64,000 nt of DNA from a virus: positions 186,001 through 250,000 of the IMG/VR virus record IMGVR_UViG_3300023278_002893; one strand, written 5' to 3'. The notes beneath the pieces were generated by a model that was not told the origin of the DNA, did not search any database, and saw only the letters and a list, made by a program, of their open reading frames with translations. Shown in pieces: positions 6,577 through 62,496 of this stretch; positions within the stretch are counted from its first letter, which is position 1; every line of letters starts with the position of its first letter. The translations under genes were made by a program, and so were the position numbers.

Positions 6577-8454
6577 TTAACTAGATTTACTTGGCTTTGT
6601 TGGTTTTGTGTTTGGTTTTGTAGATTTAGCTCGGGGCTTACCCCGTCCCTTTCGAGGCCGACCCTCGCTCGGAGTTCCCGTAGGGGTTCTCTGAATGTTC
6701 TGAATATTCTTCTGCAGGGATTGGATCTGATCTTGCATGTTTTTCTGGAAATCTTTAAGATCATCTTCTGTAACTGTAGTAGGCTTACCCCCCGGAGTAC
6801 CATCGCTCGTAGGTGCAACAGCCCCGGGTGCAACCTTGGGGTTGTACGGAGATCCAATAATGCCCAGAACTCCTGCTTGAACTGCGGGCGACTCCTGGAG
6901 CATGTTAGCATACTCGTTAGAGAAGTCGAAACCAAGCTTCTCAATACCGGTTTCATAAGAAATGATTCTTCGATCAATCATACCCTGGATGACGCTCATT
7001 AACATAATCTCATCCTTCAGAGTGTTCTCATCGAACCTAACCTTGGGATAACGATCGAAGCCCATTGCAAGTGCAACCTCTTCGTATTCGTGATCTATCC
7101 AACGTGTAACCACACGCCGGGCGTAATTAATCTCCTCAGCAAATGCCTTAGTGGCTGCCTCTATTGCCTTTGCGTTACCTGAAACCTCACCATCAATAAG
7201 GGCCCTAGTGACTCCCATGGACTGGCTTAGATCATCATTGACTTGTTCGAATTTACTCTGTCCTAGAATATTGTCAATCTCGGGAAAGGTGATCTTCTCT
7301 ACCTCCAGGGTGTGGTTCCACACGACATCAAAACTCTTACTAGAAGTATCGAACAACTGAGCGATTGCTTCTAACTGGGACTGATCAGTAACCGGATGCT
7401 CATCATTACCAATAGTTATCTTAAGAATATAGTTTGTAATTCCATCCAAGGTGGAGAAATCTGCCTTCTTTAATTCTTCCTTGTAGCGAATATCATCCAA
7501 AGCCCTAGAAAGCTTAGGCTTGGGGTACCGCTCATAATCCTGACGTCGATAATCACACTTTCCTACCAACTCCGGTGGAAGCAGCACAGGTTTGTCCTTC
7601 TTTACCTGATCTTTAAGTTCTTTAGGTAGGCTGTTAAGAAAAGCCTTCTGCTCTTTAGTCAGCTTAGAAGTATTCTTAAGCATTTTTTTCAACTCTTTGA
7701 AAGCTTGAGGCTTAAGTAGAGTTTCTGTCTGGTTAAATAACAAAGGACCTTGGATAACTACTAATCTAGGATCTAGAATTGTGTATTGTAAGGGTATAAA
7801 AGCCTTAGACCATATTTTCTTAGCAGCGCCCCATTCCGTATGTGCTTGTAATTTCTGTAGATCAGAGGTAGTTGAGAACATATTAGCTTTGGCTACGCGC
7901 TTGATCGTCTTATCAAAATCTTCTGGCTTCAACTTAGGCGCAAACTTACCCGCAATCTTGAAGGTCCTTACAAGTCCTACTCTAAAGAAGTCAAAGAATA
8001 TCTTCTCAACAGTTTCATGGAATCCAATCTCCCTAGTCCATGTATCATAAAAAAGTTTAATGGCGGGATCATCTATATCATTCTTAAAGCCCTTCGCGGC
8101 AAAGTTGGTTAGTGTGTCAATGACGGTGCCGATGTGTCCTTGAGAATGATAGGTATTAATTGCTGTATCGTAAAGCTGCTCGGGTCGTGCCTGTGTTACT
8201 TGCGGCTTACCAATAAGTAGATCAACATCTACACGTCGAAGCCAATCTCGAGAAATATTACGACCGCCCGTCCAAAACTTCATAGGATGTGGGTCTCCGT
8301 CTTTTCCTGTAAGAAACGCTAACTCCTTAACACCCCTACCCTCGGGACCAACATCAATCTCCATGGAATGAGAACCATCACCATTATCCTCATAGGAGAG
8401 AACTTCAGCATTTTCTAGACCCGCATTAAGCTTCTCTTTAACATCGTCGGACAT
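6577..8454 (-). CDS. Portal protein
   Basis: 625 aa, directly downstream of the terminase large subunit (1-base spacing). Features typical of portals: a mixed N-terminal domain with WLRRVDVDLL, a long alpha-helical middle including NILGQSKFEQVNDDLSQSMG and ARRVVTRWIDHEYEEVALAMGF, a Gly/Pro linker, then a coiled-coil and very basic Lys/Arg/Pro tail (about 575-625). Portals form the dodecameric vertex ring through which DNA is packaged and ejected. The call rests on position plus overall architecture; no single catalytic motif exists for this family. Confidence 0.8.
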   Translation of the reverse strand: MSDDVKEKLNAGLENAEVLSYEDNGDGSHSMEIDVGPEGRGVKELAFLTGKDGDPHPMKFWTGGRNISRDWLRRVDVDLLIGKPQVTQARPEQLYDTAINTYHSQGHIGTVIDTLTNFAAKGFKNDIDDPAIKLFYDTWTREIGFHETVEKIFFDFFRVGLVRTFKIAGKFAPKLKPEDFDKTIKRVAKANMFSTTSDLQKLQAHTEWGAAKKIWSKAFIPLQYTILDPRLVVIQGPLLFNQTETLLKPQAFKELKKMLKNTSKLTKEQKAFLNSLPKELKDQVKKDKPVLLPPELVGKCDYRRQDYERYPKPKLSRALDDIRYKEELKKADFSTLDGITNYILKITIGNDEHPVTDQSQLEAIAQLFDTSSKSFDVVWNHTLEVEKITFPEIDNILGQSKFEQVNDDLSQSMGVTRALIDGEVSGNAKAIEAATKAFAEEINYARRVVTRWIDHEYEEVALAMGFDRYPKVRFDENTLKDEIMLMSVIQGMIDRRIISYETGIEKLGFDFSNEYANMLQESPAVQAGVLGIIGSPYNPKVAPGAVAPTSDGTPGGKPTTVTEDDLKDFQKNMQDQIQSLQKNIQNIQRTPTGTPSEGRPRKGRGKPRAKSTKPNTKPTKPSKSS

Positions 8455-58599: not shown

Positions 58600-58628
58600 A
58601 TAATACGAGAAGTGTTCCCCCGTGTCAA
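58600..58628 (-). promoter_or_regulatory. Near-consensus sigma70 promoter (first of the minus-strand genes)
   Basis: Minus strand TTGACA (58623-58628), 17-base spacer, TATTAT (58600-58605). It marks the switch point: transcription goes left from here, while the small genes to the right are read on the plus strand. Confidence 0.85.
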
Positions 58629-58804
58629 GCACTATCTTCCCCTTTTCACTCGGGGTGGTTTATGATCTATATAGTGGCAAAGAAAGTGATTCCAACGAGA
58701 ATAATAAGAGAGAATAGAGAGGATGTCAAATAAATGACTAGGAGGTCAATATACATCTTCCCCCTTGAGATATAATGGGAGATAATATTGCCTTAGGGAC
58801 CCTA

Positions 58805-58886
58805 GCATAGTTACCTCACCTTGTGAGGTAATCATTGTTTATACCCCCCTCCTCCGTCGAGGGATATACACATTGATTAACTATGC
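58805..58886. repeat. Nested inverted repeats at the divergence point
   Basis: Outer GCATAGTTA (58805-58813) pairs with TAACTATGC (58878-58886). Inside is TTACCTCAC-N3-GTGAGGTAA (58811-58831) and a TATACCC/GGG-A-TATA pairing. A second copy of the TTACCTCAC palindrome (one mismatch) lies at 58905-58925. The stretch 58629-58987 has no gene on either strand apart from unsupported micro-frames. Likely a control region. Confidence 0.5.
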
Positions 58887-58987
58887 TACACGCGCTACCA
58901 CTTGTTACCTCACTGCGTGAGCTAATAATTCTCGCTTCGCTCGAATTAGACATGTCGTCTACTTCCAGCAAGCTGAAAGGAGACACC

Positions 58988-59026
58988 ATGTCACGACACG
59001 GAGGTCGCAAGCTCCCTCGTCACTGA
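58988..59026 (+). CDS. 12-residue micropeptide frame
   Basis: ATG at 58988 preceded by GAAAGGAGACACC, the same SD context as the larger plus-strand genes. Encodes MSRHGGRKLPRH, basic. Could be a leader peptide, attenuator frame or real micropeptide. Very short, so low confidence. Confidence 0.35.
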   Translation: MSRHGGRKLPRH

Positions 59027-59056
59027 GCTTGTCTAACGCAGCACTCATGCTGCACC

Positions 59057-59082
59057 GCACGGAGAGCTACGCTCTACCGTGC
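59057..59082 (+). other. Hairpin before the SD of the next gene
   Basis: GCACGG-AGAGC-TAC-GCTCT-A-CCGTGC gives an 11-bp stem with one bulge, ending a few bases before GGAGG. A smaller GCAGCA-CTCA-TGCTGC precedes it. It could control access to the SD or protect the transcript. Confidence 0.5.
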
Positions 59083-59095
59083 AGGAGGTATGACT

Positions 59096-59284
59096 ATGTC
59101 ATCCCCCACGCTCGTGCTCCGTGTTCCGACCTGCGACGCTGTCGATTGCATCGACCCCAGCGCAGGGTGCTACCCCGCACTCGATGTCTTCGAAGATATC
59201 GAGCTGTGCGTACATCACGAGAGTGAGTACGCCACTGCGGGTCGCATCAATGAGAGCGATCGACTCGTCGATCACTCTTCCTGA
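59096..59284 (+). CDS. Small Cys-containing protein, 62 aa
   Basis: ATG at 59096 with GGAGG 7 bases upstream. SSPTLVLRVPTCDAVDCIDPSAG, four Cys, acidic. The coding sequence holds several inverted repeats (for example GATCGAC-TC-GTCGATC). Function unknown. Confidence 0.6.
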   Translation: MSSPTLVLRVPTCDAVDCIDPSAGCYPALDVFEDIELCVHHESEYATAGRINESDRLVDHSS

Positions 59285-59290
59285 TGCTTG

Positions 59291-59313
59291 GGGACCCCCC
59301 TCTGGGGGGTCCC
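59291..59313 (+). terminator. Strong 10-bp hairpin after the 62-residue gene
   Basis: GGGACCCCCC (59291-59300)-TCT-GGGGGGTCCC (59304-59313). Perfect stem, no clear T-run, so perhaps a barrier or partial terminator. Confidence 0.45.
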
Positions 59314-59395
59314 TGTGGTTACCTCTCCGAGGTACCCTTCTATCCCTCGCTTCGCTCGGGTACCCCATCACCACGTGGATCTCGCTGCGCGAGCC

Positions 59396-59432
59396 CTAGT
59401 TGCATCACTTCGTGATACAATCATTTCTCGCT
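59396..59432 (+). promoter_or_regulatory. Recurrent 37-base intergenic cassette, copy 1
   Basis: CTAGTTGCATCACTTCGTGA followed by TACAATCATTTCTCGCT. It is repeated with one base change at 59899-59935. A five-bp hairpin ATCAC-TTC-GTGAT is centred in it, and the SD of the next gene (CGAAAGGAG) follows in both. The TGNTACAAT-like segment may be an extended -10. Operator, promoter or RNA element. Confidence 0.55.
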
Positions 59433-59454
59433 TATCACTCGAAAGGAGTATGAC

Positions 59455-59628
59455 ATGCCCAGTCTCGTCTTCGACTTTGACTGTTCCTGTGAGGTCCTCC
59501 CTTCGGGGGACCTCTGGTGCTGCGATGTGTGCAGCACCGAAGCTGACCCTTGGGGTCAGCTTGCTACCGAAGAATCCGATCGGATTCTCGGACACAACAC
59601 CTTCCTCGATATCTCTCGAAAGGAGTAG
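59455..59628 (+). CDS. Small Cys-rich protein, 57 aa
   Basis: ATG at 59455 (GAAAGGAG site). FDCSCEVLPSGDLWCCDVCSTE gives five Cys in a metal-binding-like pattern. Within 59491-59588 the coding sequence consists almost wholly of hairpins, including AAGCTGACCC-TTG-GGGTCAGCTT and the palindrome AGAATCCGATCGGATTCT. Function unknown. Confidence 0.55.
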   Translation: MPSLVFDFDCSCEVLPSGDLWCCDVCSTEADPWGQLATEESDRILGHNTFLDISRKE

Positions 59629-59631
59629 ATC

Positions 59632-59754
59632 ATGCTCGAACAATTCGCTATCGCTCTTGTCCCCACCATCGCGTTGCTCTTGGTGGGTCGCTTGATCTGG
59701 ATCACCGATCCAGAGGTCAAGCGACTGCGCAAAGCTGAGCAGAAGCTCAGCTAG
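59632..59754 (+). CDS. Small membrane protein, 40 aa
   Basis: ATG at 59632 with AAAGGAG. One TM (IALVPTIALLLVGRLIWI) and a basic tail. The frame contains a 17-bp stem (59687-59703 with 59707-59725, 2-base bulge) and AGCTGAGC-AGAA-GCTCAGCT. Function unknown. Confidence 0.55.
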   Translation: MLEQFAIALVPTIALLLVGRLIWITDPEVKRLRKAEQKLS

Positions 59755-59760
59755 CGCATC

Positions 59761-59790
59761 GGACCCCCCTAACGGGGGGTCCTCTTTTTA
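59761..59790 (+). terminator. Intrinsic terminator
   Basis: GGACCCCCC-TAAC-GGGGGGTCC followed by TCTTTTTA. Clear rho-independent terminator for the first plus-strand block. Confidence 0.85.
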
Positions 59791-59837
59791 CAGCACCGAC
59801 CCGCTTCGCTAAGTCGGTCTTGTTCATTTACTCGTGA

Positions 59838-59856
59838 GTACCCCCTTCGGGGGTAC
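59838..59856 (+). other. 8-bp intergenic hairpin with TTC loop
   Basis: GTACCCCC-TTC-GGGGGTAC. In RNA this can fold with a UUCG-type loop closed by C-G, very stable. One of several such stems between plus-strand genes. Confidence 0.6.
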
Positions 59857-59898
59857 CAACGAGCACCGCTCGTTCCTCGCTCTCGTCGTTCCTCCTCA

Positions 59899-59935
59899 CT
59901 AGTTGCATCACTTTGTGATACAATCATTTCTCGCT
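59899..59935 (+). promoter_or_regulatory. Recurrent 37-base intergenic cassette, copy 2
   Basis: Identical to 59396-59432 except TTT for TTC in the hairpin loop; again followed by TCGCTCGAAAGGAG and a gene start. Conservation of non-coding sequence between two short genes suggests a shared function, probably promotion or regulation. Confidence 0.55.
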
Positions 59936-59954
59936 ATCGCTCGAAAGGAGATCC

Positions 59955-60185
59955 ATGTTTATCATTCTTCTCGATTCCTCGAAGAACGAACTCCGCGTCG
60001 TCCGTGCTGACTCTGTCAGCGACTCCGGGACGCGGGTCGTTGTGGTTCCTCACCACAACGGTCACTCGTACGACTTCGAACTCCCTCCGGGAGTCGAAGC
60101 CTTCGCAGACCTCGCTACCTTCGACGATGTCGAAGCTGCGTGGTCGTCGGTTCGCACCGACTTCTGCCCCTCGCTCCACCCCTAG
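59955..60185 (+). CDS. Hypothetical protein, 76 aa
   Basis: ATG at 59955 with AAAGGAG. Beta then acidic helix (FIILLDSSKNELRVVRADSV, DFELPPGVEAFADLATFDDVEAAW). Inside the coding region CTTCGA-A-CTCCC pairs with GGGAG-TCGAAG. Function unknown. Confidence 0.65.
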   Translation: MFIILLDSSKNELRVVRADSVSDSGTRVVVVPHHNGHSYDFELPPGVEAFADLATFDDVEAAWSSVRTDFCPSLHP

Positions 60186-60214
60186 CGGGGTGGGGTGTCC
60201 CCCTTCGGGGGTAG

Positions 60215-60271
60215 TTACCTCACTCTGTGAGGTAATACTTCTCTGGGTACTAGCGTACCCTTTGAAGTATT
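60215..60271 (+). promoter_or_regulatory. Leader with two overlapping hairpins before the 159-residue gene
   Basis: TTACCTCAC-TCT-GTGAGGTAA (60215-60235) matches the palindrome of 58811. AATACTTC (60234-60241) pairs with GAAGTATT (60264-60271) around GGGTAC-TAGC-GTACCC. The two share two bases, so both cannot form fully. CGAAAGGAG and the gene start follow. Confidence 0.5.
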
Positions 60272-60304
60272 ATCTTTCTCGTTAATCTCTCGAAAGGAGA
60301 CTCT

Positions 60305-60784
60305 ATGCGTTGCTCGTTCTGTAACGATCCCCGTGGGATCATCATGGTTGATGGTATCCCCGAGCCCTGCTGTGATGAGATCATCACGCAGCAAGTCCGC
60401 GAAGTACGCGGCATCTGTGTCAATTGTGGGGAATCCCACACTCGCATGAACGAGGGTGTAGACACCCTCTCCGCCATGTGCTCCGATGAGTGCCTCACCG
60501 AAGCCATGGATCGCATCGAAGCAATCGCGCTGCGCGACGATTGTGGCGGTGAGATGCCCGACCAGGAGGTCATGGACCTCCATGACTCCGTCGATCGTAT
60601 CGACGCAGCCAACCTCGCGTGGTACCGCCACGCGGGTCAGTACATCGACAACGGTGTCGATGACTGTCTCGGTACTCCTCCCTTCTGGTTGGAGTACTCG
60701 ATAGAGCGCGACGCTCTGGAGAGCGATGCACGCATCGCTAAGCTCCAGAACGACGAGCACAAGTACGGGTGTATCCCGTTCTAG
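60305..60784 (+). CDS. Cys-rich zinc-type protein, 159 aa
   Basis: ATG at 60305 (GAAAGGAGACTCT). CSFCNDPRG...PCCDE, ICVNCGESHTR and MCSDECLTEA give three Cys pairs, so probably two zinc sites. Then an acidic helix-rich C-half. Largest product of the island. Many perfect stems lie in its coding sequence (for example GGAGGTC-ATG-GACCTCC and CATCGACA-ACGG-TGTCGATG). Function unknown; possibly binds nucleic acid. Confidence 0.7.
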   Translation: MRCSFCNDPRGIIMVDGIPEPCCDEIITQQVREVRGICVNCGESHTRMNEGVDTLSAMCSDECLTEAMDRIEAIALRDDCGGEMPDQEVMDLHDSVDRIDAANLAWYRHAGQYIDNGVDDCLGTPPFWLEYSIERDALESDARIAKLQNDEHKYGCIPF

Positions 60785-60869
60785 TGCTCTGGTCCCCCTA
60801 GCGGGGGACCTACCGCTCCGCTCTCGCTTCGCTCACTAGTTCCTCCACTTCGTGAAGGAGGTCACTCAC

Positions 60870-60944
60870 ATGACCAAGTTGATCCTGTGCACCTACGCTC
60901 CGCTGCTCTACTTGCTTGCGGAATTCGCTTCACTCATCCCTTAA
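60870..60944 (+). CDS. Micropeptide, 24 aa, hydrophobic
   Basis: ATG at 60870, GAAGGAGG eight bases upstream. Encodes MTKLILCTYAPLLYLLAEF..., a single membrane-type helix. The SD lies within the hairpin CCTCC-A-CTTC-GT-GAAG-GAGG, so structure could gate translation. Confidence 0.4.
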   Translation: MTKLILCTYAPLLYLLAEFASLIP

Positions 60945-60962
60945 CCAAGAAGGAGCTACGCT

Positions 60963-61016
60963 ATGGATGATCTCGACCGCGACATCCAGGACGTCATTGA
61001 CGACCTGTGCGAATAG
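60963..61016 (+). CDS. Micropeptide, 17 aa, acidic
   Basis: ATG at 60963 with AAGGAG. Encodes MDDLDRDIQDVIDDLCE, a strongly acidic helix, reminiscent in charge of DNA mimics but far too short for a claim. Followed by a 15-bp hairpin. Confidence 0.4.
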   Translation: MDDLDRDIQDVIDDLCE

Positions 61017-61022
61017 ACCCAT

Positions 61023-61058
61023 GTGGGTAGGAGTGCGTTACCGCGCACTCCTGCCCAC
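61023..61058 (+). other. 15-bp hairpin
   Basis: GTGGGTAGGAGTGCG-N6-CGCACTCCTGCCCAC (one wobble). No T-run follows. The region 61059-61240 holds GCTTCGC repeats, a short ATCAC-TTC-GTGAT copy at 61171 and no gene. Confidence 0.6.
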
Positions 61059-61240
61059 CCGCTTCGCTCGCTACGCTCGCTCGCTCCTCTAAGAGCAAGG
61101 GAGGACTCTGTTGAGTCCTACTCCAGTACCGCTCGTCCCTCGCTCTCGCTTCGCTCACTCCCCTTCGGGGATAGTCCCATCACTTCGTGATCGGTAGTAC
61201 ATTTTTTTCGCTCATCGCTCAAAAAGGAGTCCTCCATTGG

Positions 61241-61399
61241 ATGGATGACACCCCACAGCTACCTGCCCGAGCACGGCTTGGTAGCACCACGGGGGCCGTA
61301 GTGCTCCCTCCGCTGCGAGACGCAGTACAAGCAGTGACCTGCTTGTGGCGGAGGTTGATCAGCTCGCTTCGCTCGCTAACGGATGCTCCGCATCCTTAG
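61241..61399 (+). CDS. Possible protein, 52 aa
   Basis: ATG at 61241, GGAG 11 bases upstream. Contains PARARLGSTTGAVVLPPLRDAVQAVTCLWRRL; basic. Composition follows the repeat-rich background (SSLRSLTDAPHP is encoded by GCTTCGC-type repeats), so it may be spurious. Confidence 0.35.
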   Translation: MDDTPQLPARARLGSTTGAVVLPPLRDAVQAVTCLWRRLISSLRSLTDAPHP

Positions 61400-61412
61400 A
61401 GACCCGGAGCGT

Positions 61413-61427
61413 CCCCCCTACGGGGGG
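61413..61427 (+). terminator. C6/G6 hairpin
   Basis: CCCCCC-TAC-GGGGGG, followed by TAGTTTC. Weak terminator or barrier after the preceding small frame. Between here and 61524 there is no gene except SD sequence for the next one. Confidence 0.4.
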
Positions 61428-61524
61428 TAGTTTCACCGCTGCGCGATGAAGTATCGGTTCTTGCGAACCTCGTTGTTAGACCACAGTGGTCTGATGCAGG
61501 GTTCGCTTGATAGGAGGACATGAC

Positions 61525-61881
61525 ATGTCCAATGCAGTAAAGACCACGATCAAGAAGTTTTCGTTCACGAAGTGGATCAGTGAGATCGAAGGTTCGGGTG
61601 CTCGCGTACTCGGATTCTGTGAGATGACGGTCTGCGTCGATGGTCTGGAGTTCACGTTCAGTGACCTGAAGGTTCGCGTGAATCAGAAGGGTGAGCATCA
61701 CCTGTGCGCACCGAGTCGTCGCTACAAGAACTCCGAAGGTGCCTGGAGGACGTCGAGCGCGTACAAGTTCGACAATTCGACGTATGCTGCTCTGCGCAGT
61801 TTCGTCTACGGTCGCGACGAAGTGAAGGTCGCGATCGACGAAGCCGCGGATCTCGAAAAGGAGATTCCGCTGAGCGCGTAG
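61525..61881 (+). CDS. Basic protein with possible SpoVG-like segment, 118 aa
   Basis: ATG at 61525 with TAGGAGGACATGAC. A beta-rich middle (LEFTFSDLKVRVNQKGEHHLCAPSRRY) follows the order of SpoVG proteins (inducible DNA/RNA-binding regulators), but similarity is weak. Basic N-end, acidic C-end. Could be a regulator of the early block. Confidence 0.5.
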   Translation: MSNAVKTTIKKFSFTKWISEIEGSGARVLGFCEMTVCVDGLEFTFSDLKVRVNQKGEHHLCAPSRRYKNSEGAWRTSSAYKFDNSTYAALRSFVYGRDEVKVAIDEAADLEKEIPLSA

Positions 61882-61886
61882 TACAT

Positions 61887-61947
61887 AGCAGTACCTCTAA
61901 GTAGGGGTACTGCTAGTCCCACCCCACCGCTTCCCGGGGGGTGGGAC
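61887..61947 (+). other. Two strong hairpins
   Basis: AGCAGTACC (61887-61895) with GGTACTGCT (61906-61914), and GTCCCACCCC (61916-61925) with GGGGTGGGAC (61938-61947). Sits 5 bases after the stop of the previous gene. Confidence 0.6.
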
Positions 61948-62103
61948 CTCGCTCTCTTTCTGCTATCACGCGTGCTCATTGAGAAATGAAGGACTCTGAT
62001 GAGTCCTCCTTTATTGACGTTCGCTTCGCTCTCTCTCAGTTCCTCCGCTTCGCTCCCCCCTTCGCTATAGTCTCCGCATTCTCTGGATGCGGTTACTATT
62101 ATA

Positions 62104-62134
62104 AGAGACCCTCTAACGAGGAGTCTCTTTTTTT
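62104..62134 (+). terminator. Intrinsic terminator ending the hairpin-rich island
   Basis: AGAGAC-C-CTC-TAAC-GAG-GA-GTCTCT followed by seven T. After this the base composition returns to that of the rest of the genome. Stretch 62135-62496 has no supported gene; on the minus strand 62239-62427 is open (63 codons, no start except ATG 62325) and may be a relic. Confidence 0.8.
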
Positions 62135-62496
62135 ATTGACGCGCGCTGTTGCTCGGTGGATTCGTTCGGTACTGTTCATTCGGTGGTTGATTCGTTTACT
62201 CTCATTTGTTAGGGCACCACCCCAGTAGACGAAACTAATTACGGAGATATCAATTCCTTACGGAAACGCTGATTTACTCGTCGTCGCTGTGCTCCTCGTT
62301 GTTCCTTCTTTTTTTGATCTTTCATCTCGGTGCACCATTCGTAGAGATATCTATGGATGCACGCCCGTCGGATACGTAAGTACTTGCAATACTCCGACAG
62401 TGCTTTATCGATACGTCTAGGTAGTTCCTAGCGGACGAGATGGGAGATCTTTTTTCGCGGCCGCTCAAAAAAGCCTATTACAAGGAGATTAGAAAC

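Follow-up and report, generated by a model that had tools for sequence, protein, structure and literature searches.

Why should a block of phage genes be packed with hairpins, codons included, and is it the RNA or the DNA that carries the fold? This question is raised by the virus record IMGVR_UViG_3300023278_002893, a jumbo phage genome of about 298 kb (297,725 bp). The window analysed here is a stretch of 64,000 nucleotides (nt), bases 186001-250000 of that record, and the element under study, referred to below as the island, is its first rightward gene block. Protein genes seldom contain perfect inverted repeats, and such repeats are difficult to account for, since their arms must serve two codes. 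The island has a large excess of them in coding sequence and spacers, and its small genes are arranged in a row of cassettes. The explanation that we favour, plausible rather than probable, combines selected cis hairpins that bracket probably early cassettes with coding hairpins made or kept through events at the DNA level, template switching for example.

58800-62135, plus strand: island dense in hairpins; this first rightward gene block runs from the divergence point up to a terminator-like hairpin (62105-62131)

Hairpin excess and its controls

A perfect hairpin is taken here, unless stated otherwise, as a stem of at least 6 bp with a loop of 3-8 nt. The island has 42 of them, about nine times the number expected by chance (4.7 +/- 2.3, maximum 10, in 100 dinucleotide shuffles), and stems take up 18% of its bases. 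Three control stretches gave 7, 11 and 3 hairpins against 4.0, 3.9 and 2.2 in dinucleotide shuffles. A per-kb scan of nearly the whole 297,725-bp record (all but 160-166 kb) yielded 1.66 +/- 1.24 hairpins per kb and never more than 6, compared with 13, 19 and 7 in the island bins; stems of at least 8 bp occurred at 0.11 per kb in the record and at 7, 4 and 2 in these bins. Counts in 200-nt steps place the densest part at 59.0-61.5 kb. Among other phages, the N4 early region reached 8 hairpins per kb and two others 4-5. No Rfam family matched at E<=1 within 58600-62300, and no phage region of such design turned up in the open-access full-text literature, which is weak evidence of novelty.

An earlier note on this DNA had described dense perfect hairpins in spacers and genes alike and a minus-strand 58 kb unlike them. 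These counts bear it out on both points, and its example, 59491-59588, matches the description. Its spacing of one hairpin every 20-40 bases was too dense by about 2-4 times (the mean spacing of perfect stems is about 80 nt), and a block built almost wholly of inverted repeats was an overstatement, as the SpoVG-like gene at 61525-61881 has none.

The reading frames of the island are as follows. Homologues were found only for the SpoVG-like gene and the ASLIP peptide; the other frames were called coding from Shine-Dalgarno sequences (SDs) and open frames.

59096-59284, plus strand: open reading frame (ORF), 62 aa; 2 coding hairpins, no more than in synonymous shuffles
59455-59628, plus strand: ORF, 57 aa, the example gene of the earlier note; 3 coding hairpins, mean 0.43 in synonymous shuffles
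59632-59754, plus strand: ORF, 40 aa; likely membrane peptide, judged by eye
59955-60185, plus strand: ORF, 76 aa; 5 coding hairpins, mean 1.30 in synonymous shuffles
60305-60784, plus strand: ORF, 159 aa, Cys-rich; 10 coding hairpins, mean 2.62 in synonymous shuffles
60870-60944, plus strand: small ORF for a tiny membrane-like peptide with an ASLIP end; also in the relatives L069 (158-238, minus strand) and L068 (11202-11285, minus strand)
60963-61016, plus strand: small ORF, 17 aa, with SD
61241-61399, plus strand: ORF, 52 aa
61525-61881, plus strand: SpoVG-like gene, 118 aa; no stem of at least 6 bp

Within these ORFs there are 24 hairpins, against 8.0 +/- 2.2 in synonymous-codon shuffles and 11.4 +/- 2.5 in shuffles that also keep the dinucleotides. 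With loops of 3-4 nt the count is 21 against 4.0 +/- 1.8 (synonymous shuffles). Control genes had 14 hairpins against 13.3 in shuffles. The coding excess is carried by ORFs 59455, 59955 and 60305. The controls proposed in the earlier note, dinucleotide and codon-preserving shuffles, thus both give far fewer hairpins than the island. Its suggestion that codons are constrained to fold was right in that codon choice of several ORFs is tied to hairpins, but this does not extend to a need for mRNA folding. The 159-aa ORF had no homologue in our searches, phages included. The conserved ASLIP end of the tiny peptide is encoded by the string GCTTCGCTCAT.

An ordinary effect of G+C content or codon bias can be dismissed as next to impossible. 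The island, at about 56-57% G+C, is richer than most of the phage; however, both kinds of shuffle retain composition and contradict this explanation, and in the relatives L067 and L068 downstream stretches at 55-65% G+C are mostly without the excess of the first unit. An assembly artefact is also unlikely, because a second record is identical over 7 kb and the same design recurs in diverged relatives.

Spacer hairpins and gene cassettes

The small genes form cassettes in a row, most of which begin with a covarying leader hairpin, and CCCC...GGGG hairpins (C/G hairpins) lie between them. The leader is 24 nt long, with the consensus TAGTTnCnTCACTTCGTGAnGnAA, and has eight copies in the island, defined by alignment, covariation count and model search. 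A C/G hairpin stands 0-83 nt upstream of six of the eight leaders; C/G hairpins number 8 in the island and 11 in about 286 kb elsewhere.

58808-58831, plus strand: leader hairpin copy 1, 9-bp stem
58902-58925, plus strand: leader hairpin copy 2
59291-59313, plus strand: C/G spacer hairpin, GGGACCCCCCtctGGGGGGTCCC
59397-59420, plus strand: leader hairpin copy 3, before ORF 59455
59761-59789, plus strand: C/G spacer hairpin with a T run after it, probably an internal terminator
59838-59856, plus strand: C/G spacer hairpin
59900-59923, plus strand: leader hairpin copy 4, before ORF 59955
60176-60211, plus strand: two C/G hairpins (60176-60193 and 60199-60211), immediately 5' of leader copy 5
60212-60235, plus strand: leader hairpin copy 5, before ORF 60305
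60791-60810, plus strand: C/G spacer hairpin
60837-60860, plus strand: leader hairpin copy 6, its 3' arm containing the SD of ORF 60870
61159-61171, plus strand: C/G hairpin, immediately 5' of leader copy 7
61172-61195, plus strand: leader hairpin copy 7, before ORF 61241
61413-61427, plus strand: C/G hairpin, immediately 5' of leader copy 8
61428-61451, plus strand: leader hairpin copy 8, before the SpoVG-like gene
62105-62136, plus strand: terminator-like hairpin and T run, GAGACCCTCTAACGAGGAGTCTCTTTTTTT, right end of the island, judged by eye

The leader stem covaries, with 14 double-sided changes against 4.2 in shuffles and a score of 0.50 against 0.155, which none of 500 shuffles reached; the score falls to 0.11 or less once the pairing partner is slid. 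Because of this covariation, the fixed position in the cassettes and the single orientation, the spacer elements look selected. The hairpin at 59761-59789, which resembles an intrinsic terminator, suggests more than one transcript. Three weaker leader matches lie outside the island, also on the plus strand, before the gene for a single-stranded DNA-binding protein (SSB), a second SpoVG-like gene and one other ORF. The SSB copy (L008:7281-7304) is about 90 nt 5' of its gene (ORF 7393-7923). Two further strings recur: the mirror-symmetric CTCGCTTCGCTC in island spacers (for example 60825, 61060, 61147), and CGCTTCGCTC, with eight occurrences in the island, all on the plus strand.

Repetition of the leader and C/G hairpins, and siblings at 80% similarity or more for 12 of the 42 island hairpins, could indicate mobile palindromic elements of the repetitive extragenic palindromic (REP) or Rickettsia type that multiplied in the region. 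We consider this very improbable. The other 30 stems lack any similar sibling, siblings being scarcest among the coding stems, and the repeated hairpins stand at fixed sites before genes, covary and show no GTAG- or GGAG-footed REP unit. This candidate was rejected on the lack of siblings for most stems.

Relatives, loops and the molecule that folds

The divergence point is also preserved in three further contigs: L067 (from a 295.8-kb record), L068 and L069 (truncated by the contig end). Each has a hairpin-rich first rightward unit with stems differing from those of the window, and in the L067 phage no other bin within the 98 kb examined is as dense as the one homologous to the island. Except for the L069 leader, their DNA is mostly unalignable with the window. 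The first SpoVG-like copy of L068 has perfect coding stems of 14, 11 and 9 bp (p=0.003, paired bases) and that of L067 has stems of 9 and 8 bp (p=0.003), while the distal copies of both show no significant stem excess and the window copy has none. This comparison shows that stems track position and not protein, and that stem positions are unconserved. Relatives that keep a protein without its stems, which the earlier note would have counted against codons constrained to fold, were therefore found in part, as related SpoVG-like genes keep the protein, some with stems and some without.

The loops are tight. In the islands loop sizes peak at 3 and 4 nt, whereas control hairpins of the same phage are flat over 0-20 nt. 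On the top strand, 23 of 62 loops of 3-4 nt (stem at least 5 bp; window and L069) read c(TNC)g or c(TNNC)g and none c(GNA)g or c(GNNA)g; elsewhere in the phage the former type makes up 9 of 565 loops. By complementarity, top-strand c(TNC)g is c(GNA)g in bottom-strand DNA; 15 of 38 triloops in the window and L069 fit a template-strand 5'G and 3'A with a closing C:G pair, and none the mirror orientation. In the window spacers many loops are of this c(TN(N)C)g type, and the closing pair is C-G in 21 of 26 hairpins and G-C in none. Spacer hairpins are partly related, which makes the effective sample smaller, and a non-redundant loop count still gives 13 of 27. Loop energies against letter-shuffled loops (RNA parameters) gave z 0.1 for the top strand and z -5.7 for the bottom strand (-4.0 with repeats removed); the DNA energy tables contain no GNA triloop bonus.

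Selection on RNA would have the first transcripts built of hairpins as a shield against RNases, antisense RNAs or RNA-targeting defence, or as binding sites for a protein of the phage, for example the SpoVG-like product. The excess is limited to one block from divergence point to terminator, synonymous sites take part, local folding reaches z -8, leader hairpins at the 5' end and C/G hairpins at the 3' end would enclose short mRNAs, and SpoVG of Listeria binds RNA through an apical loop (PMC4959528). However, stems show no G-U excess over A-C mismatches (numbers are small), bottom and top strand fold equally well, the loops are not tuned to top-strand RNA, the drop in pairing at start regions is only marginal (p=0.065) and the last gene of the block is without stems. 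We therefore regard selection on RNA as unlikely, though worth keeping in view. The role in first transcripts named by the earlier note stands as to place, the first rightward unit at the divergence point, but these results did not bear out protection from RNases or antisense RNA; its alternative of single-stranded DNA or cruciforms suits the loop evidence better than mRNA folding does.

The loop evidence fits functional hairpins of the bottom (template) strand, extruded by supercoiling or single-stranded, and recognised by the phage RNA polymerase (RNAP), SSB or replication proteins in the style of N4 early promoters. Loops of the d(GCGAAGC)-type GNA and d(cGNNAg) kinds are exceptionally stable in DNA. 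The phage has its own single-chain RNAP as well as the SSB gene preceded by a leader, and in N4, hairpin extrusion on the template strand depends on these very features, a 5'G and a 3'A in the loop with a C:G pair closing it (PMC4496689). On the other side, the hairpins are far more than promoters need, half of them inside codons, and about half of the leader copies break the G...A loop rule (loops CTT, TTT, TCT). A PF00940 search gave no T7-type RNAP, although its controls gave no match either. We rate functional DNA hairpins as rather improbable; a template strand packed, codons included, with extrudable c(GNA)g and c(GNNA)g mini-hairpins as a recognition or replication platform for RNAP and SSB, far beyond the few promoters of N4, is more doubtful still.

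Our favoured explanation, with selected spacer hairpins and DNA-made coding hairpins, takes the island as the first rightward block of a jumbo-phage lineage, with small genes in cassettes that are probably early, judging from position and gene size. The spacer hairpins would be cis elements that set off or control each gene. The coding hairpins, being perfect, unique, movable and without wobble, look DNA-made; they may mainly be generated and kept perfect at the DNA level, most simply by replication template switching or fold-back synthesis near the GC-skew minimum, and would be tolerated inside the protein code without selection for mRNA folding. Template switching creates and repairs perfect stems (PMC8794818), and has been proposed as the origin of coding palindromes in Nematomorpha (PMC6649704). 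Cumulative GC skew drops from about 52 kb to about 245 kb of the record and then climbs, with its minimum at the island, which places the island at the split of the leftward and rightward gene arms.

Several points weigh against this explanation. The skew minimum may mirror gene orientation and not an origin. A mutational process alone leaves unexplained why hairpins are restricted to one gene block in several diverged phages, which a functional reading explains better, and why hairpins are lacking on the leftward side of the divergence point. The only close record is identical, so no template-switch event can be reconstructed and no substitution pattern read. The covariation counts in the leader are mostly paralogues and not independent events, and template switching could also yield them. 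Finally, the c(TN(N)C)g bias does not extend to L067 or L068, which also speaks against functional DNA hairpins and makes the bottom-strand bias a trait of the window's closer lineage.

The phage and comparable systems

Outside the island, the following features were found.

58600-58799: divergent promoter region with leftward sigma70-type promoters (-35 at 58729 and 58628) from a promoter scan; ATCTTCCCC occurs twice, and also in the three relatives, by eye
L087:6734-9898 (record 26.7-29.9 kb, beyond the window): single-chain RNA polymerase, 1054 aa, from profile matches

The divergence points of the window, L067, L068 and L069 have in common TGTCAA-N5-ATCTTCCCCT beside the leftward promoter and a second string, of TTCCCC type, about 70-135 nt off, a possible shared operator. 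The sigma70-type promoters point to a bacterial host. The RNAP matches both large RNA polymerase subunits (Rpb2 domain 6, Rpb1 domain 2), with NQHGNKG, NSLGSMNLDFDGD and DFDGD; this two-barrel protein recalls YonO- and crAss-type phage RNAPs, and the 295.8-kb relative encodes a homologue. No tubulin, the marker of nucleus-forming phages, was found in the phage (the search control worked), and no tRNAs were found. In the window, endonuclease-like ORFs of HNH or related type are numerous by eye among the phage genes (11043-11540, 14033-14932, 17123-17686, 23130-23816, 23852-24490 and 46693-47400).

Among annotated phages the terminase is closest to those of Bacillus phage Staley and Microcystis phage MaeS (28.6-31% identity), and it has 41 related loci in viral contigs, one of them in the 295.8-kb record. 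A terminase 75% identical lies in L076 (WJJK01000045.1), a contig in an Altiarchaeales metagenome-assembled genome, probably a phage contig wrongly binned; it is the only such contig found by terminase, too little for a host call. Further relatives sought with island proteins, leader DNA and the string ATTGTTTATACCCCCC gave only the identical record, a known relative or unrelated matches, and the neighbouring leftward proteins and the SpoVG-like alignment as queries gave no records beyond those already found.

The name SpoVG-like is a lead only, drawn from sequence comparison. PF04026 (SpoVG) gave only weak matches, to relatives, below the curated cut-off (18.6 and 18.5 bits against 29.6). The 61525-61881 protein matched structure 2ia9 at E 0.35, and its predicted model, of moderate confidence, gave no fold match. 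Three paralogues lie on the rightward arm (record positions 247525, 252816 and 270573), and the second paralogue of the relatives has an acidic NPF-type tail resembling that of the phage SSB.

Dense, strand-biased coding repeats that recur in diverged relatives could separate selection on RNA folding, selection on DNA hairpins and generation by template switching, a question that RNA genes and animal mitochondria have already prompted. Several genes, SSB among them, are preceded by the leader hairpin, which makes it a compact candidate for a regulatory element in a jumbo-phage group about which little is known.

Four known systems resemble the island in part. The virion-RNAP promoter hairpins of N4 (PMC4496689) share the short stem, the 3-nt loop, template-strand c(GNA)g and early phage genes, but N4 has three promoters, while the island has dozens of hairpins, codons included, a different RNAP type and loops that fit only partly. 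REP and Rickettsia palindromic elements (PMC3733652, PMC3767692) are also short palindromes between genes, and in Rickettsia within them; they are genome-wide copies of shared units, whereas the island stems are mostly unique and lie in one block. RNA hairpins generated by template switching (PMC8794818) have perfect Watson-Crick stems that single DNA events could make or repair, but were shown by ancestral reconstruction, whereas the island has no demonstrable intermediate. Coding palindromes in the mitochondria of Nematomorpha (PMC6649704) are likewise perfect inverted repeats in protein genes, with unique stems gained and lost between relatives and codon degeneracy used for pairing. Like them, the island exceeds codon-preserving shuffles (24 against 8.0 +/- 2.2) and has unconserved stem positions, in the SpoVG-like genes, but it lacks long arms of tens to hundreds of bp. 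The nematomorph palindromes reach 284 bp in conserved respiratory genes of an animal mitochondrion, while the island has stems of 6-15 bp and loops of 3-4 nt in tiny phage genes, together with repeated leader and C/G spacer hairpins.

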